NCBI RefSeq assembly: GCF_029350975.1
Contig: NZ_JARKMR010000002.1
Location: 558,001 to 622,000, forward strand
Direction: 5' to 3'
DNA length: 64,000 nucleotides
Origin: Maribacter zhoushanensis
GTDB taxonomy: Bacteria > Bacteroidota > Bacteroidia > Flavobacteriales > Flavobacteriaceae
Under the pieces are notes generated by a model. It saw only the letters and a program-made list of their open reading frames with translations. It was not told the DNA's origin and ran no database searches. The translations under genes and the position numbers were made by a program. Each line of letters starts with the position of its first letter. The stretch's first letter is position 1. Below, in pieces: positions 24,074 through 35,080 of the stretch.

Positions 24074-24682
24074 CTACTTCTTTCTTTTCATTAATTCAGC
24101 CTCTATGTCTTTAAGCGTAAACCCTTTTGCTTGTAGAAGCATTAAATAATGAAAAAGTAGATCTGCACTCTCGTACAAGAACAATTCATCATTATCATCC
24201 ATAGCTTCAATAACGGTTTCAACGGCTTCCTCCCCTACTTTTTGAGCAACTTTATTGATGCCTTTCTTAAATAATGAAGCTACATATGATTTACTATCAT
24301 CTGCAGTTGTTCTACGTTCTTCAATAGTATTTTCTAATTCAGAGAAAAATCCAAAATTAGAATTATTTTTTTCACTCCAACACGTATCCGTGCCCGTATG
24401 GCAAGTAGGTCCCACAGGGTTTACAGAAATTAAAAGAGAATCGTTATCACAATCGTTTTTAATGGATACCAGGTTTAAGAAGTTGCCACTTTCTTCACCT
24501 TTAGTCCATAAGCGCTGTTTTGAGCGACTAAAAAAAGTAACCTTACCACTATCAGTAGTTTTCTTCAAAGCCTCAGCATTCATGTAGCCAAGCATTAATA
24601 CATTCTTAGTACGAGCATCTTGTATAATTGCTGGTACTAATCCGTCACTCATTTTATCCCAATTTGGTGTATTAAACTCCAT
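24074..24682 (-). CDS. hisIE: Bifunctional phosphoribosyl-AMP cyclohydrolase / phosphoribosyl-ATP pyrophosphatase
   Basis: A 202-residue fusion carrying histidine steps 2 and 3. The N-terminal HisI domain (1-110) has the metal-binding pattern FFSRSKQRLWTKGEESGN, DCDNDSLLI and GPTCHTGTDTCW. The C-terminal HisE domain (about 115-200) has the helical MazG-like fold with GEEAVETVIEAM and ESADLLFHYLMLL. It is the last gene of the his operon, 219 bases after hisF, with dispersed repeats in that gap. The downstream gene is convergent. Confidence 0.95.
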   Translation of the reverse strand: MEFNTPNWDKMSDGLVPAIIQDARTKNVLMLGYMNAEALKKTTDSGKVTFFSRSKQRLWTKGEESGNFLNLVSIKNDCDNDSLLISVNPVGPTCHTGTDTCWSEKNNSNFGFFSELENTIEERRTTADDSKSYVASLFKKGINKVAQKVGEEAVETVIEAMDDNDELFLYESADLLFHYLMLLQAKGFTLKDIEAELMKRKK

Positions 24683-24738
24683 ATGTATTGTATTCTAATT
24701 TTATTTTTATTCTATTTTAAACCTTCAATTTTAAAATC

Positions 24739-24761
24739 GGTCACTCAGCGTAGCCAAAGTG
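24739..24761 (+). repeat. Dispersed repeat, VTERSRS-type, copy 1 (diverged)
   Basis: GGTCACTCAGCGTAGCCAAAGTG between hisIE and hisF. It differs from the copy at 24826 at only two positions and is the inverse of the core at 17306. Confidence 0.65.
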
Positions 24762-24774
24762 AATATAGATGTTC

Positions 24775-24801
24775 CCAAGCCTTCGACTGCGCTCAAGATG
24801 A
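24775..24801 (+). repeat. Dispersed repeat, related TTCGACTGCGCTCA type
   Basis: CCAAGCCTTCGACTGCGCTC plus AAGATGAC. A related palindromic-repeat word commonly scattered in Bacteroidetes intergenic regions; it lies between the two GGTCACT copies. Confidence 0.55.
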
Positions 24802-24825
24802 CATTGTTTTTTATAATATTAATCA

Positions 24826-24848
24826 GGTCACTGAGCGTAGCCGAAGTG
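24826..24848 (+). repeat. Dispersed repeat, VTERSRS-type, copy 2
   Basis: GGTCACTGAGCGTAGCCGAAGTG, the inverse of the core at 17306-17327. A reading frame over this block translates to VTERSRS, a known hallmark of spurious gene calls in this group. Confidence 0.7.
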
Positions 24849-24901
24849 CGATAATCAAAACTGAACACTGCGACTGCCAACTGATAACCGAACACTGAAA
24901 A

Positions 24902-25657
24902 CTAAACTCTAACCGGAATACCGTTCTCCTTCAACTCAGTCTTCAATTCTTGTATACCAATTTCTTTAAAGTGAAAAACACTTGCCGCTAATGCCGCATC
25001 TGCTTTTCCTTCGATAAAAGTATCGGAAAAATGTTGCATGTTTCCTGCACCACCAGAAGCAATTATTGGAATATTCAATTCCGTTGATAATCTAGCCAAA
25101 GCTTCATTTGCGAATCCGTCTTTTGTACCATCATTATCCATAGAAGTAAATAGAATTTCTCCAGCTCCACGTTCTTCCACTTCCTTTGCCCATTCAAACA
25201 ATTTACGTTCTGTTGGTACCTTGCCGCCCACTAAGTGAACAATCCACTCCCCATCAATCTGCTTGGCATCTATGGCAACTACAATACATTGCGAGCCAAA
25301 CTTAGCAACCAAATTATTAATTAACTGGGGATTCTTAACCGCGGATGAATTAATGGAAACCTTATCTGCACCGTTATGTAACAATACATCTACGTCTTCA
25401 ACAGATGAAATACCACCACCAACGGTAAAAGGAATATTTACCTTTTCGGCAACACGATATACTAAATCTGCCAAAGTTTTTCTTTTCTGTTCCGTTGCAG
25501 AAATATCTAGAAAAACCAATTCATCGGCACCTTCACGACTATAAATTTCGGCTAGTTCAACTGGATCACCAGCATCACGTAAATCAACAAAATTTACGCC
25601 TTTTACAGTTCTACCGTCTTTGATATCTAAACAAGGAATTATTCTTTTTGCAAGCAT
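24902..25657 (-). CDS. hisF: Imidazole glycerol phosphate synthase cyclase subunit
   Basis: A 251-residue (beta/alpha)8 barrel. The catalytic aspartates are in [13 protein letters not shown] (Asp near 11) and [13 protein letters not shown] (Asp near 130), and the phosphate-binding ends are TVGGGISS and ASGGAGN. It makes ImGP and AICAR from PRFAR using ammonia channelled from HisH. It is in the his operon after the DinB gene, separated by 122 bases that contain TACTT-type repeats. Confidence 0.96.
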
Positions 25658-25669
25658 TTTTTTAAAAGT

Positions 25670-25765
25670 ATTAAGTACTTAGTAATAAGTACTAAGTGTT
25701 CTTTATATATATTAAATAATTAAATACAGCAACGCGAGTACTTGGTACTTTGTACTCTGTACTTG
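25670..25765. repeat. TACTT-word repeats and 8-bp hairpin upstream of hisF
   Basis: The hairpin ACTTAGTA (25677-25684) / TACTAAGT (25690-25697) lies on the left. On the right is a degenerate tandem of TACTT/GTACT words (about 25738-25768). Similar GTACTTTG words flank the four-helix-bundle pseudogene (around 28050 and 28440). Confidence 0.5.
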
Positions 25766-25779
25766 ATACTATTTTTTCG

Positions 25780-26295
25780 TTACTCATTTTTAATATTCAA
25801 ATCAACTCCGTCATAAAATCCTAAGTCCTTCTCTTTTATCAGTTTCACGTAAAAAGCTATTTGACCGGTGTGATAAGAATAATGCTCAACGGCATGCATA
25901 ATGGCACCAACTCCGGAAAAAGACATTCCCTGTATTGACCTTACTTTTATCAACTTCTCTACTGTTGAATCAAAAATGATACGTTTTACTGAGTCTACCG
26001 TATCTTCTAATTTATGTAATAACTCTTCTTTGGTTAGCCCAGAATTCACGGAAAACTCAGCATCTCTATTTCTATTATCATCCATTTCACCCAAGGAAGA
26101 AATAACGTATTGTGTCATGTTTCCACACAGGTGCAAGATAAGGTTCGCCATACTGTTCAAAGATGAATTAGGCTTTTGCCAAATTTCTTCTTCTGAAATT
26201 TCAACAAGACTTTTCTTAATCATACGCGTACTTTCGTTCATACGGTATAACGCATTCTCAACAATTTCTTGAACTAAGCGATCTTCTTTATCCAT
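25780..26295 (-). CDS. DinB-like protein inside the his operon
   Basis: A 171-residue four-helix-bundle protein of the DinB/DUF1572 type. Candidate metal-ligand histidines are [22 protein letters not shown]. The pattern H-x3-H near the end and the first His in LILHL match the family triad. DinB proteins include mycothiol/bacillithiol-dependent transferases, but many have no known activity. It overlaps hisA by 8 bases at its start side and precedes hisF, so it is co-transcribed with the his genes. It has no known part in histidine synthesis. Confidence 0.85.
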
Positions 26296-27019
26296 TACTT
26301 AAAATATATGATTCTAGTTGTTTTAGGCTTATTCGGTTCTCATAGATAGCTTTACCAATTATAGTCCCTTCACAGCCCATTTCTGATAATTTTGGTAACT
26401 CATCAAAAGTTGATATTCCACCACTGGCAATTAATTTTACCCCCTTTTCCGTAGCGTTTATAATCTTAGCATATAAATCAAAAGAGGGACCTTCTAACAT
26501 GCCGTCTTTACTTATATCCGTACAAATGACATATTGAATACCTTTTTCTTGATAAGACTGTATAAACGGCACCAATTCTTCCTTAGATTCTTCTAACCAA
26601 CCCGAAACCGCAACTTTTTCATCCATTGCATCTGCTCCAAGAATAATTTTGTCTGAACCATGTTTATCTATCCAACCAAGGAAAGTATCAGGGTCTTTTA
26701 CCGCAATACTACCTCCGGTAATTTGTTTGGCACCACTTTCAAAAGCGATTCGCAAATCTTCATCGGTTTTTAATCCGCCACCAAAATCAATCTTTAAACT
26801 AGTTTTAGAAGCAATCTGCTCCAACACTTTATGGTTTACAATATGCTTTGATTTTGCGCCATCTAAATCAACCAAATGCAAATATTCAATTCCGTGAGCT
26901 TCAAATTCTTTTGCGATTTCTAACGGATTCTCATTATATATTTTTTTGGTATCGTAATCACCCTTTGAAAGGCGAACACATTTTCCATCTATGATATCTA
27001 TGGCTGGTATTATTCTCAT
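26288..27019 (-). CDS. hisA: Phosphoribosylformimino-5-aminoimidazole carboxamide ribotide isomerase
   Basis: A 243-residue (beta/alpha)8 barrel, isomerising ProFAR to PRFAR. The catalytic Asp pair is in [17 protein letters not shown] (Asp8) and [14 protein letters not shown], with phosphate loops DFGGGLKT and ASGGIST. It overlaps the DinB gene by 8 bases and follows the GNAT gene by 3 bases in the operon direction. Confidence 0.95.
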
Positions 27020-27022
27020 TCT

Positions 27023-27445
27023 TTAATCTAAAATTTGTTTATCGATAGACATCCACAATGGTGAATCTCCTATTTTACTGAATTTAAACCGCTCATAAAA
27101 CAAATGGGCGTCTTTAGTCTTTAATGCTAATGTTTTAAGTTTTTTAATGGTAGTATCTTCTAACATTGTTTTCAATAGCATCTTACCATATCCCTTACCT
27201 TGAAATTTTTCTAGGATAATCACATCCATAAAATATCCAAAATAAATATAATCTGTAACTACTCTGGCAAAACCCACTTGTTCTTTTTCAAGAGTATACA
27301 TTCCAAAACAGTATGAGTTTTCAATGGATATTTTTACCTCTTCTAATGTTCTATTATCTCCCCAGTATGAATTGGCAATAAATTGTTGAATTGCTTCTAT
27401 ATTGAAAAGGTTTTTATCAGTTGAAATAAAATAATCTTGCTCCAT
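27023..27445 (-). CDS. GNAT family N-acetyltransferase inside the his operon
   Basis: A 140-residue GNAT acetyltransferase. The acetyl-CoA loop is EKFQGKGYGKMLLKTML, preceded by the strand YFGYFMDVIIL; the C-terminus AHLFYERFKFSKIG matches the usual Tyr/Phe region. It shares its first base with the end of hisH and ends 3 bases before hisA, so it is tightly packed into the operon. Its substrate is unknown and it is not part of the histidine pathway. Confidence 0.87.
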   Translation of the reverse strand: MEQDYFISTDKNLFNIEAIQQFIANSYWGDNRTLEEVKISIENSYCFGMYTLEKEQVGFARVVTDYIYFGYFMDVIILEKFQGKGYGKMLLKTMLEDTTIKKLKTLALKTKDAHLFYERFKFSKIGDSPLWMSIDKQILD

Positions 27446-28026
27446 TACATTTGTAAAAAATTCTCTAGAATTCGCTGCCCTACATCACTACTCTTTTCCG
27501 GGTGAAACTGGGTACCATAAAAATTATCTTTTTTTAATGCAGCACTATAAGCTAAACCATAATCACAAGTAGCAATAGTTTCAGCACAAATAGGAGCGTA
27601 AAAACTATGAACTAAATAGATATGCTCCTTCTCCTCAACATCTTTAAAGAGTCTAGATTTTAGATTGGTTATTTGATTCCATCCTATCTGTGGAACTTTT
27701 ACCGTATCATCAAATTTAACAACATCAACATCAAAAATTCTTAGTCCGGTTGTGTTTCCTTCTTCAGATGAATTACACATTAATTGCATGCCCAAGCAAA
27801 TACCTAAAACAGGCTGTTTTAAAGTTGGAATAATTTTGTCCAAGCCACTATCACGAAGCTTATGCATAGCGCTACTTGCTTCCCCTACTCCTGGAAAAAT
27901 AACTTTATCGGCATTCTGTATTTCTTGAACATCATTGCTTAAAACAGCTTCGTAACCCAATCGTATTATAGCGAATTTTATGCTCTGTATATTTCCAGCT
28001 CCGTAATTTATTATTACAATTTTCAT
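27445..28026 (-). CDS. hisH: Imidazole glycerol phosphate synthase glutaminase subunit
   Basis: A class I glutamine amidotransferase of 193 residues from the ATG at 28026 (MKIVIINYGAGNIQSI); a GTG two codons upstream is less likely. The catalytic triad is visible: Cys in GICLGMQLM, His and Glu in QFHPEKS. It releases ammonia from glutamine and passes it to HisF. It is followed with a one-base overlap by a GNAT gene. The region upstream holds the broken four-helix-bundle gene. Confidence 0.95.
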   Translation of the reverse strand: MKIVIINYGAGNIQSIKFAIIRLGYEAVLSNDVQEIQNADKVIFPGVGEASSAMHKLRDSGLDKIIPTLKQPVLGICLGMQLMCNSSEEGNTTGLRIFDVDVVKFDDTVKVPQIGWNQITNLKSRLFKDVEEKEHIYLVHSFYAPICAETIATCDYGLAYSAALKKDNFYGTQFHPEKSSDVGQRILENFLQM

Positions 28027-28091
28027 AAGCACAAATACAATTTTAAAGGTACAAAGTACAAAGTGTTTATCTTATTTTTCATATTCTACTT

Positions 28092-28436
28092 TCAATTTGC
28101 TCTTGTCGTTTTTATAGAGGCTACAATTATTGCCAAAAGTTCTTTAGTCTCATTATGCAATTTGATTATCTCTTCTTTTCTATTAGAATTGACTTCTGAA
28201 AATAATTCTAACCAGTATGCAGATTCATCTATTTCTTCTTAAACTATCTTAAGTTTATTTATAAAATCAGCAGTTGATTTAGCTCTTTGCGAAGCTTTAT
28301 AGTTTGCACCAACCGAGCTAGAACTTCGTATCAATTGACGTACCCATACATCCAATTCTCGACATCGTGGAATTTGTTCACAAAATAACCAACAATCAAC
28401 AGCAAATTGTTTTGTGCGCTTTTTTAAATCTTGCAT
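28092..28436 (-). pseudogene. Four-helix-bundle (S23/IVP-type) protein gene with internal stop
   Basis: From the ATG at 28436 (MQDLKKRTKQFAVDCWLF) the frame reads a four-helix-bundle protein, with LIRSSSSVGANYKASQRAKSTADFINKLKIV, then a TAA at 28239-28241. The same frame continues at once with EEIDESAYWLELFSEVN and ends at a TGA at 28092. Total about 114 codons is the usual length, so one base change (such as GAA to TAA) explains the break. These proteins occur in rRNA intervening sequences and as stand-alone genes; the role is unclear. It sits between hisB and hisH. Confidence 0.75.
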
Positions 28437-28468
28437 CACTTCGTACTTTTAACATCTAACCTTGTACC

Positions 28469-29605
28469 TTACAATACTCCTTTCGTACTTGGTAATACCA
28501 TTTTCTCAACATCTCTTTTTACAGACATTTTAATACTCTTGGCAAAGGCTTTGAAAATGGCTTCAATTTTATGATGCTCGTTGGTACCTTCTGCTTTGAT
28601 ATTTAAATTTGCTTTTGCTCCGTCAGTAAATGATTTAAAGAAATGATGAAACATTTCTGTTGGCATATCACCTACCATTTCACGTTTAAAGTCTGCATCC
28701 CATACTAGCCAATTTCGTCCTCCAAAATCTATGGCAGATTGCGCTAAACAATCATCCATAGGTAAACAGAATCCGTAGCGTTCAATACCAAGCTTGTTTC
28801 CTAATGCGGTATGAAATACTTCACCTAATGCAATACCGGTATCTTCTATAGTATGGTGCTCATCAACTTCAAGGTCACCATCTACCTTGATGGTTAAATC
28901 CATTTGCCCATGACGAGCCAATTGATCTAGCATATGATCAAAGAATGCCAATCCGGTTTTAATATCACTTTTACCGGTACCATCTAGATTTAGCTTTATA
29001 GCAATATCTGTCTCATTGGTTTTTCTATGAATCTCAGCAGTTCTATCATTCAACTTCAAGAACTCATAAATCTTTTCCCAATCATTACTTTCAATTGCGA
29101 TATGACTATCTAGCTCATCTCTTTTTACCGTTATCTCGCCAGTACCCAAATTGGTTTCATCGTTGATAAAGATACCTTTAGACCCAAGGTTCTTGGCTAA
29201 TTCCATATCTGTAAGTCGATCACCGATTACAAAAGAATTCTCTAAATCATAATCCTCAGAAAAATACTCTGTCAAAAGCCCGGTACCGGGCTTTCTAGTA
29301 TCGGCATTTTCATGCGGAAAAGTTCTATCTAAAAAGACCTTGTCAAAAACTACCCCTTCATTTTCAAAGGATTTAAGAATAAAATTATGAACCGGCCAAA
29401 ACATATCTTCTGGAAATACATCAGTACCCAAACCATCTTGGTTAGTAATCATCACCAATTCATAATCTAATTCTTTAGCAATCTTGCCTAGATATGTAAA
29501 TGATTTCGGGTAGAAAATCATCTTCTCAAAAGCATCTATCTGCTCATCTACAGTTTCTTTGATTATAGTGCCATCACGATCAATAAATAGTACTCTTTTT
29601 TTCAT
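28469..29605 (-). CDS. hisB: Bifunctional histidinol-phosphatase / imidazoleglycerol-phosphate dehydratase
   Basis: A 378-residue fusion for steps 6 and 8. The N-terminal HAD-type phosphatase (1-165) has the nucleophile motif FIDRDGTII, the Thr in MITNQDG, and the metal motif [11 protein letters not shown]. The C-terminal dehydratase (about 185-378) has the paired His/Glu motifs [39 protein letters not shown] and [13 protein letters not shown]. Fused HisB is usual in this lineage and in enterobacteria. Upstream lies the DUF2167 gene with 119 bases between. Confidence 0.96.
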
Positions 29606-29724
29606 TTCTTTTTCATATAATAGTAAATAACCTCAGAACAAGCCTACAGGGCATTGAAATGAAATTATAATTAAAACTTTGACGCAAGCGTAGGAGCATT
29701 TAAATCTCGATTATCAAGTAAATA

Positions 29725-30690
29725 CTAAGACAATTTAGAATCATCTTTAGGACCTTCGATTACCGTTTGTTCTTTATCTCCAAGAAAGAACTTTTTAACT
29801 CCTGCAAATAATGCTACTCCCCCAATTGCTATAAATTTCCAAAACTTAAGTATCAGTGCAAAAAAACCGGCTTTTGCTAAAATCTTACCTGCTATTAAGC
29901 CGCCAATACCATAAGCCGCTACATCATCAAAATCAGGATCAAATTCAGAATACTTGTACCCGGTATTAAATGATACGCTACCCAATATTGGATCTAAATT
30001 ATTCTCAACATCTTCAAGAGTATCCATGTCACCGATAACATTCAGGTTCATATACCCTTTTCTACCCAAAACTCTAATATTGTAATTCAAAGTACTTACC
30101 TCTTCATCTTCAAAAAGTAATTCTTTAGCCCAATATAATTTCTTGTTTTCAGAATCATAATAAGGTTTAGATGCCCAGCCAATTAAATCCACTGTAGGGT
30201 AACCCATACTAGACCTTTGCGGATTTGCTTCCTTAACATCATCCTGCATTTCACTTAGCAAGTCATCGTAATCCATATCTTGCGCATCATCATCTTCAAT
30301 ATATCCATCTTCTGAATATGAAATTTCAATAGCATAGCTTGTTTCAACCGGCGATTCATCTTCTTTCAACAAAAGCCCCATTACCGACTCATCTCTGGGA
30401 TTTCCCCATATATCCGTAAGTACGCGCTGTGCTTGTTCACTATCTAAAAATTTATAGCCTTCTGGTACCATAATTTTAGCTACGTCACCATTTAACATAG
30501 ACCTATCGTAGATGTATGTAAAGGTATTTTCAAGACTATCTGAATAAAGCTTAAAACTAATCAGTGCCTCTGTATCTTCCTCACTTAAGTTTAAACTATC
30601 TGCTATAAATTCTAGTCTTTCGATATCTTGAGCTCGAGCTATACTAACTGTTATTAATAAGGCGATAAAATAAATGAACTTGCTTTTCAT
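29725..30690 (-). CDS. DUF2167 family membrane protein in the his operon
   Basis: A 321-residue protein with a signal peptide (MKSKFIYFIALLITVSIARAQ) and a C-terminal hydrophobic part (about 258-305, IGGLIAGKILAKAGFFALILKFWKFIAIGGVALFAGV). The DUF2167 core has MVPEGYKFLDSEQAQRVLTDIWGNP, ISYSEDGYIEDDDA, YPTVDLIGWASKPYYDSENKKLYWAKEL and YNIRVLGRKGYMNLNVIG. It is an envelope protein with unknown function. It lies between hisC (17 bases upstream) and hisB, so it is probably transcribed with the his genes but has no known role in the pathway. Confidence 0.87.
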   Translation of the reverse strand: MKSKFIYFIALLITVSIARAQDIERLEFIADSLNLSEEDTEALISFKLYSDSLENTFTYIYDRSMLNGDVAKIMVPEGYKFLDSEQAQRVLTDIWGNPRDESVMGLLLKEDESPVETSYAIEISYSEDGYIEDDDAQDMDYDDLLSEMQDDVKEANPQRSSMGYPTVDLIGWASKPYYDSENKKLYWAKELLFEDEEVSTLNYNIRVLGRKGYMNLNVIGDMDTLEDVENNLDPILGSVSFNTGYKYSEFDPDFDDVAAYGIGGLIAGKILAKAGFFALILKFWKFIAIGGVALFAGVKKFFLGDKEQTVIEGPKDDSKLS

Positions 30691-30707
30691 TGGTTTTGGT
30701 TTAAAGG

Positions 30708-31748
30708 TTATATCATTTTTAACGCCTTAGCAAGTGTTTTATTCTCTGTGGCACTACCCACAGTAAAACGAAGGGTATTCTCACACAAAGGTTGTGTAGT
30801 TCTGTTTCTTACTACTACCCCTTGTGCCAATAATTGCTCATATCTCAAAGTAGCATCATCCACTTTTGCTAGAATAAAATTAGCATCCGTAGGATAGATT
30901 CTTTCAACAAATGAAACTGTTTTTAAAGTCTCCTCTACTTTTATCCTTTCCGCTAAAATTTGACTTACCTCATTCTTTACAGATGCTGTATCCAAAACTC
31001 GAGAAGTTGCTTTCTCTTGGGTAAGTTGATTCACATTATATGGAGGTTTAATCTTATTTATTACAGCAATAATTTCTGCGGATGCTATACATATACCCAA
31101 ACGTATACCTGCCATACCATAAGCCTTTGATAAGGTTTGTGTTACAATTAGATTTGGATACTCAGATAGTTTCGATGTCCAACTTTCTTCAGATGAAAAA
31201 TCGATATAGGCTTCATCAATTACTACCAATCCGTTGAAAGAATTTAAAAGCTCTTCTATGTTTTGTGTTGAGAAACTATTACCTGTAGGATTGTTGGGAG
31301 AACAGATAAACAACAGTTTTGTATGCTCATCAATGGTATTCTTTATTTCAGAAACGTTTGGCTGAAAATCATTGGTTAACAAAACCTCTTTATTTTCTAC
31401 CATATTTATACCAGAAAGCACTTTATACATGCCGTATGTAGGTGGCAAGGTGATAATATTATCTTGTTTAGGTTCACAGAAAGCCCTGAACAACAAATCA
31501 AGTACTTCATCACTACCATTACCTAAAAGAATATTTTCTTCTTTAATCCCCTTCTGTTCAGCTAAAATTGCTTTTAAACCTCGCTGTTGAGGATCTGGAT
31601 ACCTATTGACTCCGTTTTCAAACGGATTCTCATTTGCATCTAAGAAAACCATGGTAGAACCATCTGAAACATATTCATCACGTGCTGATGAATACGGACT
31701 TAAGCCTTTTACGTTTTCTCTAGTTATGTTGTTTAAATTGAAACTCAT
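30708..31748 (-). CDS. hisC: Histidinol-phosphate aminotransferase
   Basis: A 346-residue fold-type I PLP aminotransferase from the ATG at 31748 (MSFNLNNITRENVKG); an upstream TTG at 31784 would add 12 residues. Conserved points: LDANENPFENGVNRYPDPQ, VIDEAYIDF, and the PLP lysine in TQTLSKAYGMAGIRLG. It converts imidazole-acetol phosphate and glutamate to histidinol phosphate. In the operon it follows hisD by 43 bases and precedes the DUF2167 gene. Confidence 0.95.
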   Translation of the reverse strand: MSFNLNNITRENVKGLSPYSSARDEYVSDGSTMVFLDANENPFENGVNRYPDPQQRGLKAILAEQKGIKEENILLGNGSDEVLDLLFRAFCEPKQDNIITLPPTYGMYKVLSGINMVENKEVLLTNDFQPNVSEIKNTIDEHTKLLFICSPNNPTGNSFSTQNIEELLNSFNGLVVIDEAYIDFSSEESWTSKLSEYPNLIVTQTLSKAYGMAGIRLGICIASAEIIAVINKIKPPYNVNQLTQEKATSRVLDTASVKNEVSQILAERIKVEETLKTVSFVERIYPTDANFILAKVDDATLRYEQLLAQGVVVRNRTTQPLCENTLRFTVGSATENKTLAKALKMI

Positions 31749-31791
31749 TATTTCAACAATATATTGGTCATTGTCCCTAGGCAAAATGACA

Positions 31792-33075
31792 TTATTTTAA
31801 ACTATTTAATCTTAAAGTAACTGCATTTTTATGAGCCTCTAAACCTTCTGCTTCCGCCATTAGTTCAATAGCCCTACCTATTGTCTGAATACCTTCTTCG
31901 GTAATTTTTTGAAAAGTCATATTTTTCATAAAACTATCTAGGTTAACGCCACTATACTGCTTGGCATATCCATTAGTTGGTAAAGTATGGTTGGTGCCAG
32001 AAGCATAATCCCCAGCACTTTCAGGTGTATAATTACCAATAAAAACAGAACCGGCATTTTGAGTATTGTCGATATAAAAATCTTCATTTTCTACACATAC
32101 AATGTAATGCTCTGGACCATATTCATTGATTAAGTCAATTGCCTCTTGGTCGTTATCAATATAAATTAGCTTACTGTTGGCAATTGCCTGTTTCGCTATT
32201 TCTTTACGTGGTAAATCTTCTAACTGTACAGCTACTTCTTTCTCAACCGCATCAATCATTTCTTTAGAAGTAGAAACCAATATTACCTGACTATCTACGC
32301 CATGTTCAGCCTGACTCAATAAATCTGAAGCAACAAACGCCGCGTTTGCAGAATCATCAGCAACAACCAATAATTCCGACGGACCAGCGGGCATATCTAT
32401 AGCAACACCGTATTTTGTTGCAATCTGTTTTGCCACCGTAACATATTGATTACCTGGTCCAAATATTTTATATACTTGTGGTATCGTTTCAGTCCCAAAT
32501 GTCATACCCGCTATTGCTTGTATGCCACCAACTTTTACAATTTTAGTAACACCGCATAAATCTGCAGTATACAGAATGGCAGGATTTAATTTCCCTTCTT
32601 TATCTGGTGGTGAGCATAAAACTATTTCTGAGCAACCAGCAATTTTAGCCGGTACTGCTAACATTAAAATAGTTGAAAATAAAGGAGCCGTACCCCCGGG
32701 AATATACAAACCTACCTTTTGGATAGGTCTTTTTTCTTGCCAACAAGAAACACCCGCAGCAGTTTCTACTTCAACCCTACCCGTTTTCTGAGCGCTATGA
32801 AAAACTTCAATATTGGATTTTGCTAACTGAATAGCAGCTTTAAGTTCATCTGAAACTAAGGATTTAGCTTCTTCAATTTCAGCTTTGGAAACTAAAAGAT
32901 TATCTAAACTAACCTTATCAAATTGTTCTGTATATTTTTTAAGAACACTATCGCCGTTATCTGAAACCTCTTTAAAGATGCCGTTCACCAAACCTTCAAT
33001 ATCGGCAACGGTTTGGGTTGGTCGTTTTAAAACGTCAGCCCAATCTGTTTTATTTGGATTATAAATTTTATTCAT
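31792..33075 (-). CDS. hisD: Histidinol dehydrogenase
   Basis: A 427-residue zinc enzyme doing the last two NAD-dependent oxidations of the pathway. The family motif SQAEHGVDSQVILVSTS is present, with the catalytic region YGPEHYIVCVEN (Glu-His) and the C-terminal SAGDYASGTNHTLPTNGYAKQYSGVNLDSFMKNM. It is the second gene of the operon, 96 bases after hisG; that gap holds AAAAGCT-type inverted words. Confidence 0.96.
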   Translation of the reverse strand: MNKIYNPNKTDWADVLKRPTQTVADIEGLVNGIFKEVSDNGDSVLKKYTEQFDKVSLDNLLVSKAEIEEAKSLVSDELKAAIQLAKSNIEVFHSAQKTGRVEVETAAGVSCWQEKRPIQKVGLYIPGGTAPLFSTILMLAVPAKIAGCSEIVLCSPPDKEGKLNPAILYTADLCGVTKIVKVGGIQAIAGMTFGTETIPQVYKIFGPGNQYVTVAKQIATKYGVAIDMPAGPSELLVVADDSANAAFVASDLLSQAEHGVDSQVILVSTSKEMIDAVEKEVAVQLEDLPRKEIAKQAIANSKLIYIDNDQEAIDLINEYGPEHYIVCVENEDFYIDNTQNAGSVFIGNYTPESAGDYASGTNHTLPTNGYAKQYSGVNLDSFMKNMTFQKITEEGIQTIGRAIELMAEAEGLEAHKNAVTLRLNSLK

Positions 33076-33171: not shown

Positions 33172-34029
33172 TTACAATACCATTTTCTCAATTGGGCAAA
33201 CTAGAATGCCTTCTGCTCCTGCTTTCTTCAATTCATCAATTACTTCCCAAAACTTGTCTTTATTGATTACTGTATGTACAGAACTCCAACCTTCATCAGC
33301 CAAAGGTAAAACCGTTGGGCTACGCATACCTGGCAATAGTTTAAGTATACCGTCTAATTTATCATTAGGTGCATTTAATAAAACGTATTTAGAACCCCTA
33401 GCTCTTAAAACAGATTGAATTCTAAATTGTAGTTTTTCTAAAAGTTTTTTTCTTTCTGCAGTAATTTTAGGTGAGACCGCAAGTACAGCTTCACTGGTCA
33501 ACATTACTTCAACCTCTTTTAAATTATTTTTAAACAGTGTACTACCACTAGAAACAATATCACAAATAGCATCTGCTAAACCTATATTGGGTGCAATCTC
33601 TACAGAACCATTGATAATGTGTAAATCTGCCGTAACTCCCTTATCTTTCAAATAGTTTAATACTGTATTTGGATAAGAGGTTGCAATACGTTTTCCTTCA
33701 AAATCTTTAACAGAATCATAGTCAACTGATTTTGGCACAGCCAAGGACACTTTACATTTAGAGAAACCAAGCCTTTCTGCAATTGAAATGTCTTCTCCTT
33801 TTTCAATCAAGACATTTTCGCCAATAATAGCAATATCAACAACTCCATCTCTTAAGTATTGAGGTATATCACCATTTCTTAAATAAAATACTTCCATAGG
33901 GAAATTTCTGGACGATGCCTTCAATTGGTCTTTACCATTGTCTATGGAAATTCCGCAGTCTTTTAAAATTTGAAGGGACTCCTCATTAAGTCTTCCCGAT
34001 TTCTGAATAGCAATTCTAATTTTAGTCAT
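33172..34029 (-). CDS. hisG: ATP phosphoribosyltransferase, long form
   Basis: A 285-residue long-form HisG, so it needs no HisZ partner. It joins ATP and PRPP, the committed and feedback-controlled step. The catalytic domains (1-210) contain IAIQKSGRLNEESLQIL and the PRPP loop DAICDIVSSGSTLFKNNL; the C-terminal regulatory domain (about 215-285) ends EGILVCPIEKMVL, where histidine binds in characterised members. It is the first structural gene of the operon, preceded by a His-rich leader and a terminator hairpin. Confidence 0.96.
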   Translation of the reverse strand: MTKIRIAIQKSGRLNEESLQILKDCGISIDNGKDQLKASSRNFPMEVFYLRNGDIPQYLRDGVVDIAIIGENVLIEKGEDISIAERLGFSKCKVSLAVPKSVDYDSVKDFEGKRIATSYPNTVLNYLKDKGVTADLHIINGSVEIAPNIGLADAICDIVSSGSTLFKNNLKEVEVMLTSEAVLAVSPKITAERKKLLEKLQFRIQSVLRARGSKYVLLNAPNDKLDGILKLLPGMRSPTVLPLADEGWSSVHTVINKDKFWEVIDELKKAGAEGILVCPIEKMVL

Positions 34030-34071
34030 TTTCTTAATTTAATGCTTGGCAACCAAAAGAGATTTAAATAC

Positions 34072-34101
34072 AAAACCCGTTTGATTGCTCAAACGGGTTT
34101 T
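34072..34101 (-). terminator. his operon attenuator terminator
   Basis: A 12-base perfect stem (AAAACCCGTTTG / CAAACGGGTTTT, 34072-34083 and 34090-34101) with a 6-base loop, 43 bases before the hisG ATG and 30 bases after the leader-peptide stop. Minus-strand sequence after it is TTTTGTATTT. It may also stop readthrough from the SPFH gene. Confidence 0.85.
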
Positions 34102-34146
34102 TAAAATATGTTGTTCTACTACAATACATTCCTACCTCGCCTGAGC
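34087..34146 (-). promoter_or_regulatory. Antiterminator pairing of the his attenuator
   Basis: On the minus strand, leader codons 14-16 (GCTCAGGCG, 34138-34146) can pair with CGTTTGAGC (34087-34095), the end of the 5' arm and start of the loop of the terminator: nine contiguous pairs, seven Watson-Crick and two G-U. This excludes the terminator. A ribosome stalled at the first His codons leaves the leader arm free; a ribosome reaching the stop codon covers it. Confidence 0.65.
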
Positions 34147-34185
34147 GTGAATATGGAAATGATGATGTGTAGTTCTATTTTTCAT
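34132..34185 (-). CDS. hisL: his operon leader peptide
   Basis: A 17-codon minus-strand frame, ATG at 34185 and TAG at 34132-34134: MKNRTTHHHFHIHAQAR. Five of 17 residues are His, packed as HHHFHIH at positions 7-13. This is the hallmark of a ribosome-mediated attenuator leader for histidine biosynthesis, and it sits right before a terminator hairpin and hisG, with a competing antiterminator pairing. It is too short for routine gene calling. Histidine starvation would stall the ribosome within the His run and allow transcription into hisG. Confidence 0.85.
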   Translation of the reverse strand: MKNRTTHHHFHIHAQAR

Positions 34186-34199
34186 TATACTGTAAAAGT

Positions 34200-34229
34200 A
34201 AAAGGTATTTTTCATTTCACAAAACAAAA
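34200..34229 (-). promoter_or_regulatory. Possible his operon promoter
   Basis: On the minus strand, TTTTG (34225-34229), 17 bases, then TACCTTTT (34200-34207), a 7/8 match to the -7 box TAnnTTTG. Transcription would begin near 34194 and the leader ATG is at 34185. The spacing is a little short for the Bacteroidetes consensus. Confidence 0.3.
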
Positions 34230-34264
34230 GTTTAAAATGAAACAAAAATAATTAAGTACGTGTT

Positions 34265-35080
34265 TTAGTTATTCCCTAAAATTAGAGGAAGTCCAGACTC
34301 ACCACCACCAACTACAATTACTTTAGAATTAGGCGATTCAGACAATTTCAACGTTGCATCAATACCTTTATCCTGAAGAATTTTATCTGTTAATGAAGCA
34401 CTTAAAATTCTATTCGCATCTGCCTTACCTTGAGCTTCAATAGTTACTTTTTCTGCTTCTTTCTTAGCAGTAACCAAACGGAACTCATATTCTAAAGACT
34501 CTTGCTCTTGCTTCAATTTTCTTTCAATAGCATCTTTAATTGTTGGCGGTAACGTAACATCTCTAACTAAAATTTCATTTAATTGAATATACTCGCGCTC
34601 AACTATTTTTTGAGTCTCATCAAATATTTCTTGTTGAATAGCATCTCTCTTGCTAGAATATAATTGCTCTGGTGTGTAACGACCAACTACCGAACGAGCA
34701 GCGGATCTAATTGTTGGTAATAAAACACGTTGTACATAGTCTTCACCCTTTTCTTGGTGTAATTTACCCAAGTCATTTTTAATAGGTTCAAACCAAGCAG
34801 AAGCCTCTAATTTAATGTCAAGACCATTACTAGAAAGTACGTTCATTTTTTCTAGAACTTCTTGCTGTCTTACTTCATAAACAAAAACTTTGTTCCATGG
34901 TGCCACCAAATGAAACCCTTCTCCTAAAGGTGGTTCATCTGTAACAACACCATTTCCAAACGTTTTATACAATACACCAGCTTCACCTGACCCAATTGTT
35001 ACTGTAGATTTTGAAAATGCAATTACTAATACTATAAAAATAAAGACTGCGGGTAACGCAATTTTTGGCAACTTGTCCAT
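34265..35080 (-). CDS. SPFH/Band 7 prohibitin-like membrane protein
   Basis: A 271-residue prohibitin-family protein with one N-terminal membrane anchor (about 9-25), the Band 7 domain (about 27-200), then a coiled coil (about 185-235, rich in Glu, Lys, Ala) and a Gly-rich end. The sequence ALPAVFIFIVLVIAFSKSTVTIGSGEAGVLYKTF and QVQRVLLPTIRSAARSVVGRYTPEQLYSSKRD-type block is typical. These proteins form large membrane rings that scaffold membrane proteases or lipid microdomains. It ends 10 bases after the VWA gene start-to-stop order, so both are likely co-transcribed. Its promoter and partners are not visible here. Confidence 0.88.
   Translation of the reverse strand: MDKLPKIALPAVFIFIVLVIAFSKSTVTIGSGEAGVLYKTFGNGVVTDEPPLGEGFHLVAPWNKVFVYEVRQQEVLEKMNVLSSNGLDIKLEASAWFEPIKNDLGKLHQEKGEDYVQRVLLPTIRSAARSVVGRYTPEQLYSSKRDAIQQEIFDETQKIVEREYIQLNEILVRDVTLPPTIKDAIERKLKQEQESLEYEFRLVTAKKEAEKVTIEAQGKADANRILSASLTDKILQDKGIDATLKLSESPNSKVIVVGGGESGLPLILGNN

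Follow-up and report, generated by a model that had tools for sequence, protein, structure and literature searches.

A predicted ribosome-mediated attenuator upstream of hisG in Maribacter zhoushanensis and its counterparts across the phylum

The window, a stretch of 64,000 nucleotides from a 4.26 Mb assembly of Maribacter zhoushanensis, carries a cluster of histidine biosynthesis genes on its minus strand, of which hisG (33172..34029, ATG at 34029; TIGR00070, 187.3 bits) is the first structural gene. The remainder of the cluster (24074..33075, minus strand) follows in the order hisD, hisC, DUF2167, hisB, hisH, GNAT, hisA, DUF1572, hisF, and hisIE, and family models assign hisG, hisD, hisC, hisB, hisH, hisA, and hisF, as well as both domains of hisIE. 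The genes for DUF2167 (29725-30690), GNAT (27023-27445), and DUF1572 (25780-26295) proteins lie between the his genes on the same strand. The cluster is taken to be a his operon, and its co-transcription is presumed. An SPFH/Band-7 gene (34265-35080, PF01145 match) is encoded upstream on the same strand and ends 79 nt before the leader described below. The closest named relatives belong to Maribacter, with HisG identities of up to 97%.

Between the SPFH/Band-7 gene and hisG lies a short open reading frame (34132..34185, minus strand, ATG at 34185) that, as read from the DNA, encodes the 17-codon leader peptide MKNRTTHHHFHIHAQAR followed by a stop codon. Five of its codons (7, 8, 9, 11, and 13) specify histidine, and the triplet at codons 7–9 (34159..34167, minus strand) comprises the likely stall codons, as judged from conservation, alignment, the nascent-RNA fold, and geometry; a short ORF with such a codon bias, placed before the operon whose amino acid it encodes repeatedly, is expected of leader-peptide attenuators. 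The leader is followed by an intrinsic terminator stem-loop (34073..34100, minus strand; predicted −16.6 kcal/mol), in which the arms AAACCCGTTTGA and TCAAACGGGTTT of a 12-bp stem enclose the loop GCAA (34100-34073), and which is succeeded by a T-rich stretch. The terminator starts 31 nt past the leader stop, or 30 nt if one extra A–T pair is counted, and 43 nt separate its end from the ATG of hisG. Codons 14–16 (GCTCAGGCG) can alternatively pair with CGTTTGAGC through nine pairs, two of them G–U, beyond which a bulged A and three further pairs follow. The 5′ arm of this antiterminator, GCTCAGGCG-A-GGT, runs from codon 14 into the stop codon (34134..34146, minus strand), and its 3′ arm, ACCCGTTTGAGC (34087..34098, minus strand), overlaps the terminator 5′ arm; both arms are defined by duplexes, alignment, and folding, and the 5′ arm also by coevolution. 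The antiterminator encloses an inner hairpin between the leader and the terminator (34103..34132, minus strand), whose basis is the predicted nascent-RNA fold and not covariation. The earlier note had described a minus-strand frame of 17 codons, five of them for His, a 12-bp terminator 30 bases past its stop and 43 bases before hisG, and a nine-pair alternative of codons 14–16 with the terminator arm; the DNA bears out each of these, with the refinements of spacing and pairing given above.

Of 562 relatives found, the best 80 were examined for the His-rich frame, whose presence in relatives had been proposed as a check; 79 of them have it (leader rule, at least three His in eight codons), ending 69–198 nt upstream of hisG. 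The HHH run occurs in 78 of the 80, with HQHH in L063 and only YHH at the same place in L033. A strong terminator, defined by a T-run and a predicted energy no higher than −9 kcal/mol, is found in all 79 relatives with a leader, and with the window included both elements are present in 80 of 81 loci; as the 80 relatives are Flavobacteriaceae genera or unplaced Bacteroidia/Bacteroidetes MAGs, these loci are not mutually independent. A strong intrinsic terminator thus lies between leader and hisG in the window and in 79 of the 80 relatives, but not in 41 of the 134 leader loci of a wider phylum set. In three of the 80 relatives (L003, L005, and L009), codon 15 is changed from CAG to the stop codon TAG, so that the peptide is three residues shorter while the pair is kept as U–G; stop codons that preserve the pairing argue for a constraint on the RNA rather than on the peptide end.

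The coevolution of the two pairing segments was assessed in loci with a strong terminator, using the best duplex of the stretch past the first His codon with the terminator 5′ arm and loop. In 95 loci (the window, five relatives picked for spread, and 89 phylum-set loci), cognate duplexes average −14.15 kcal/mol, against −9.60 kcal/mol for noncognate arms from other families and −7.78 kcal/mol for shuffled sequences, and the cognate arm is better than every noncognate arm tried in 29 of the 95. In five of the 95 (L022, L110, L122, L124, and L194) the cognate duplex falls short of the noncognate mean, and in four more (L139, L169, L185, and L209) at least half of 50 shuffles pair no worse than the cognate. 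When arms were deranged among 17 families, three of them represented by one locus each, the observed mean over 169 loci (−14.84 kcal/mol) lay beyond all 300 derangements, the lowest of which reached −12.18 kcal/mol around a null mean of −10.17 kcal/mol (sd 0.55). The arms vary by family, as exemplified by CGTTTGAG, CCGTCTGAG, GGCTTACC, and CCCCGGCG, and the leader ends vary in step. The antiterminator is mutually exclusive with the terminator and is kept by coevolution.

Within the order, pairing was followed in alignment A1, composed of 61 loci chosen by eye for spread from 122 distinct loci (44 of 93 from f1, 9 of 12 from f5, 3 of 6 from f7, 4 of 4 from f15, and 1 of 2 from f2), with f9, f3, and f14, which looked too divergent, left out. 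Paired cells make up 86.8% of 665 in the antiterminator (no more than 46.8% after sliding) and 96.0% of 732 in the terminator (no more than 56.0% after sliding), percentages that are favoured because the structures were derived from the same sequences. At the position shared by both structures (column 114), C faces G on both partner strands in 11 of the 61 sequences, U faces A and A in 31, and U faces G and A in 16, with 3 others. Antiterminator cells with two-sided changes number 25 versus 12.8 in shuffles, and none of 500 shuffles reached as many; the pairs with such changes number 2 of 11 versus 2.9 in shuffles, further pair types 11 versus 12.8, and 26 of 58 leave the outermost pair open. 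With a core that hardly varies, the antiterminator shows thin covariation inside the order, so that the evidence at this level is one of maintained pairing, and the claim of coevolution rests on the comparison between families. Neither of the two refuting outcomes named at the outset came about: the His-rich frame persists in the relatives, and the antiterminator sequence changes together with the terminator arm across the 17 families, its two-sided changes within the order being few. RNAalifold returned the terminator only from the 61-sequence alignment, as is expected of alternative structures. An early anti-antiterminator, formed by codons 4–7 and the stretch past the stop codon, is weakly supported (62.3% of cells paired versus 52.0% when slid) and is not claimed here.

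Folding of the growing transcript suggests how the two structures could succeed one another. Nascent RNA of 100–108 nt from the AUG is predicted to form the antiterminator (−21.9 kcal/mol) with the inner hairpin, and the predicted switch to the terminator fold occurs between 108 and 112 nt past the AUG (−29.7 kcal/mol, then −32.3 kcal/mol at 119 nt). A ribosome was modelled with its leading edge 14 nt past the first A-site base, at codon 7, codon 9, codon 13, or the stop codon; in the constrained 104-nt RNA, the antiterminator forms with the stall at codon 7 or 9, and not at codon 13 or the stop codon. Since the arm stays free with stalls at codons 7 and 9 but lies under a ribosome stalled at codon 13, the HHH run probably acts as the sensor, in line with the earlier proposal that a ribosome held at the first His codons leaves the antiterminator free. 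At its full 119 nt, the RNA is predicted to favour the terminator whichever of the four positions the ribosome occupies, codon 7 included (−26.9 kcal/mol), which implies that antitermination must be kinetic. Kinetic antitermination is usual among attenuators.

In the 165 of 169 loci with an antiterminator energy of −9 or lower, the first His codon lies a median of 22 nt (range 17–63) from the arm, and in 161 of the 165 the arm falls at least half inside the footprint, which we take to extend from −17 to +13, of a ribosome whose A site is occupied by the stop codon. The share of His codons by distance upstream of the arm is 83/322 at 24–29 nt, 293/330 (89%) at 18–23 nt, 194/330 (59%) at 12–17 nt, 73/329 at 6–11 nt, and 22/325 (7%) at 0–5 nt. 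The regulatory codons are thus placed so that a stalled ribosome frees the arm and a terminating ribosome covers it, a geometry that is partly built in, because the search for the arm started 9 nt downstream of the base that opens the first His codon.

Consensus scanning predicts a promoter of the Bacteroidota type, TTTG-N19-TACTTTTA, between the SPFH/Band-7 gene and the leader, with a −33-like TTTG element (34220..34223, minus strand) 19 nt from a −7-like box, TACTTTTA (34193..34200, minus strand; consensus TAnnTTTG), that ends 7 nt before the leader ATG. According to passages of the respective papers, the −7 box of F. psychrophilum spans −12 to −5 (PMC9723704), and 4–5 nt separate box and probable starts in F. 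johnsoniae (PMC6847099); these spacings yield a predicted 5′ UTR of 2–3 nt, and hence a predicted near-leaderless start of the his leader RNA. At a scan threshold of 14, a box stands 3–9 nt before the start in 63 of 105 f1 leaders, 21 of 90 other leaders, and 14 of 371 control ORFs, which include operon-internal genes and mechanically chosen starts. A box 15–22 nt before the start is found in 13, 28, and 9 of these, respectively, and any box in 102 of 105, 76 of 90, and 88 of 371. Leaderless mRNAs are given as 5.5% in F. psychrophilum (PMC9723704), and 87% of the F. johnsoniae transcripts with a probable promoter are given leaders of more than 10 nt (PMC6847099), again in passages of these papers.

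Sequence comparison and predicted folding make it highly probable that the element controls the his operon as a ribosome-mediated transcription attenuator, and expression of the operon is predicted to respond to charged tRNA-His; this agrees with the reading of the earlier note, as the frame persists in the relatives and the antiterminator coevolves with the terminator arm. The promoter just upstream would start the RNA 2–3 nt before the leader AUG, and with such a start ribosomes would be able to load once the RNA emerges. When charged His-tRNA is scarce, the ribosome would stall at His codons 7–9 with its front edge short of codons 14–17, which would be free to pair with the emerging 5′ arm of the terminator. 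The resulting antiterminator (predicted −21.9 kcal/mol) would be complete about 100 nt past the AUG, and with it in place the terminator would come too late, allowing RNA polymerase to read into hisG. When histidine is plentiful, the ribosome would reach the stop codon and cover the antiterminator arm, the terminator would form, and transcription would end before hisG.

Genes often carry intrinsic terminators downstream, and with the same-strand SPFH/Band-7 gene (34265-35080) ending 79 nt before the leader, the hairpin could be the 3′ terminator of that gene and the His-rich frame incidental. The coevolution of the terminator arm with the leader end contradicts this, the leader is kept in 79 of 80 relatives, and a promoter-like −33/−7 pair intervenes between the gene and the leader, which together make such an origin of the hairpin very improbable. 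A histidine- or tRNA-binding RNA, either a riboswitch or a T-box, would work without translation and would reduce the ORF to a by-product; an aptamer of a new kind is conceivable for an element that has no Rfam family, but no T-box is among the Rfam matches, the consensus fold of the 61 sequences is the terminator only, and the His codons keep a fixed distance from the antiterminator arm while the leader ends and the stop position vary, so that direct binding is hardly to be expected here. Most leaders of the relatives end in QAR or a close variant, and a conserved HHH...QAR motif might arrest the ribosome through the nascent peptide instead of through a shortage of charged tRNA-His. However, the leader ends differ in other families while the complementarity persists, and three of the 80 relatives have a stop codon inside the motif; we regard peptide arrest as a very unlikely substitute for stalling at His codons through a lack of charged tRNA-His.

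The match to the Rfam His_leader family that had been suggested as a check did not materialize. Rfam gave no gathering-threshold match in the window, His_leader included, and neither His_leader nor T-box is among the 12 matches at E up to 10 in 33900-34400. The best sub-threshold match, L10_leader (26.5 bits versus a cut-off of 44), was rejected, as was Trp_leader (14 bits, opposite strand).

In E. coli and Salmonella, hisL comprises a His-codon leader with a mutually exclusive antiterminator and terminator, and precedes hisG. The present element shares these features and the position before hisG. It differs in that the closing part of the leader ORF contains the antiterminator arm, with one RNA arm serving both states, and in that it has no established anti-antiterminator, a predicted near-leaderless start, and no Rfam match, E. 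coli being set apart by description. Attenuators in some Bacteroidetes/Chlorobi were reportedly predicted by Vitreschak et al. in 2004 and by Lopatovskaya et al. in 2010; an earlier prediction is therefore likely, and priority is not claimed. The principle of ribosome-mediated his attenuation is summarised in a passage of PMC9413887.

Passages of PMC9723704 describe structured 5′ elements before pheA and hisG, among other genes, in F. psychrophilum and other Flavobacteriaceae genera, with no Rfam match, and give strong indications that amino-acid operons are attenuated through leader peptides. The present account is thus not the first report, as a hisG element and leader-peptide attenuation are already described there for F. 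psychrophilum. The Maribacter element precedes the same gene in the same family, likewise without an Rfam match, and is very probably the same element. The earlier note was unsure how well Flavobacteriaceae have been covered in this respect; the literature mentions a hisG element of F. psychrophilum and further genera, while the section of that paper on 5′ cis-regulatory RNAs is without its anatomy, covariation, or distribution outside the family, of which the supplements may hold more. New here are the anatomy, the coevolution, the predicted near-leaderless start, the distribution, and the f37 variant. Among the matches listed, the phylum's hisG element is described only in PMC9723704, and it is not described in the relevant passages of PMC4833913, PMC8305728, PMC7366714, PMC2965389, and PMC1262725. 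The word Bacteroidetes does not occur in the main text of PMC2965389, and the sole attenuation passage of PMC8305728, which treats the his genes of the superphylum, concerns regulation in general. By description, the element resembles the Firmicutes His-leaders (Bacillus cereus group, Eubacteriales, and Erysipelotrichales), which belong to another phylum and have three to five consecutive His codons, a terminator, and an antiterminator in the account of PMC9413887. Sinorhizobium meliloti trpL is similar in that transcription begins at the ATG of the leader, a start that is known there and only predicted here, and differs in its amino acid, Trp, and in belonging to the Alphaproteobacteria, according to passages of PMC7298713.

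Of 119 genomes from the order, 61 have a TIGR00070 match, as do 213 of 247 from the phylum; with that of the window, these amount to 256 different genomes. The phylum set, a non-random sample, consists of 180 hisG-upstream loci from 179 of the other 255 genomes (the 60 best-scoring, 80 hand-picked from listed places, 20 chosen in a third batch from families seemingly without a leader, and 20 in a fourth, including 14 from f37), which may overlap in species with the relatives set. Leaders were called mechanically from at least three His in seven codons no more than 300 nt upstream, with GTG and TTG starts allowed, and some of these matches, such as long f35 frames, are doubtful. In the first 140 loci, a leader is found in 115, versus 4 when these 300-nt stretches are read on the opposite strand, and frames with at least four His in 99 versus 0. 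In the whole set, 134 of 180 loci have a leader and 93 of those a strong terminator (115 and 89 in the first 160 loci, 19 and 4 in the last 20).

In the first 160 loci, leaders are present in f1 (25 of 25 examined), f2 (2/2), f3 (1/1), f5 (12/12), f7 (6/6), f9 (3/3), f13 (1/1), f14 (1/1), f15 (5/6), f17 (5/5), f18 (5/5), f19 (4/4), f22 (6/6), f24 (1/1), f25 (2/2), f30 (11/11), f35 (3/4), f37 (14/14), f43 (2/3), f48 (4/4), f50 (1/1), and f56 (1/1). Among the same loci they are absent from f16 (0/12), f27 (0/3), f28 (0/2), f29 (0/2), f31 (0/10), f32 (0/3), f33 (0/1), f39 (0/1), f42 (0/5), and f49 (0/3). HisG of f27, f29, f31, and f42 has GLPKGSLQ at the position of AIQKSGRL in the window (20 loci of the third batch), and HisG of f32 has AIQKSGRL despite the missing leader. 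The f16 genomes, of 0.6 Mb, carry hisG, with no His-rich leader upstream in any of the 12 examined. A covariance model, R1, matched at E<=1 in 94 of 100 genomes, and its matches were compared with the position of hisG only in genomes shared with the TIGR00070 searches of order and phylum. No second copies were seen among the R1 matches listed, the 69 below 1e-5 lying in 69 different genomes, with weaker matches left aside.

The leaders of f37 form a variant without a strong terminator. The first 14 loci (of at least 29 f37 genomes) all have a leader, none has a strong terminator, and the 70 nt past the leader stop show a mean C–G skew of +0.57 (lowest 0.44) with 7% G, whereas 779 control windows upstream average 0.00 and about 1% of them reach f37 values. 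Since the skew was spotted post hoc, 14 further f37 genomes, comprising every one with a listed position, were examined as a test; all 14 have a leader, none a strong terminator, and the mean skew is +0.59, with no control window as high in 13, and 16% of control windows matching L264 (skew 0.30). In total, 28 of the 28 f37 loci examined (L113–L117, L123, L125, L127, L132, L138, L140, L141, L203, L211, and L254–L267) have a leader without a strong terminator. The terminator-bearing families f1 (−0.06), f5 (−0.15), and f30 (−0.20) are without the skew. A GC-rich hairpin that lacks a proper T-run occurs in L138 and L141. A conserved hairpin in f37 leaders was rejected, as folding did not exceed that of codon shuffles (z −1.6 to +1.4 in 14). 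Strong terminators are also lacking from the leaders of f17 (6/6; L186, L188, L189, L191, L197, and L268), with little or no skew (+0.13 in five and +0.33 in L268), and from those of f22 in three of six (L195, L196, and L201).

Rho prefers C-rich, G-poor RNA. The tract past the f37 leaders has this composition and invites a bolder reading, by which they are perhaps candidate Rho-dependent his attenuators. A joint reading, tentative and on balance doubtful, would see in the element an old and widely shared control of AIQKSGRL-type hisG in the phylum that has changed its output stage, in f37 to a Rho-dependent one; in several lineages the leader RNA would be leaderless or nearly so, and rapid initiation may take over from the pause hairpin the timing that couples ribosome and polymerase in bacteria lacking Shine-Dalgarno sites.

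The principle of such control is textbook knowledge; the element is widespread in a poorly studied phylum, and offers a concrete, testable control of histidine biosynthesis for many of its genomes that Rfam does not recognise in the window. As attenuation of this type depends on a ribosome that closely follows RNA polymerase, coevolution in many families is indirect evidence of transcription–translation coupling without Shine-Dalgarno sites. The attenuator could serve as a ready reporter for measuring this coupling, and the terminator-less families as natural experiments on the changing of attenuator output.

Other amino-acid operons of the same genome were also inspected. No ilv attenuator was seen in the 450 nt before two of the four acetolactate-synthase-type matches, the best match lying close behind another ORF, which leaves this negative with little weight. 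Upstream of trpE (L226), a Trp leader, MKNLIANTWWWNNLRKTS, starts 171 nt before the trpE match; a promoter-like box, TATATTTG, lies 7 nt upstream of its ATG, a terminator hairpin is predicted, and the region is likely a trp attenuator. Upstream of pheA (L233), a Phe/Tyr-rich leader, MTKQYFWNGFYFYFFFKRGTGLL, starts 236 nt before the pheA match and is followed by an inverted repeat and T-run that appear terminator-like by eye. Both leaders agree with the attenuation clues and the pheA element described in passages of PMC9723704.
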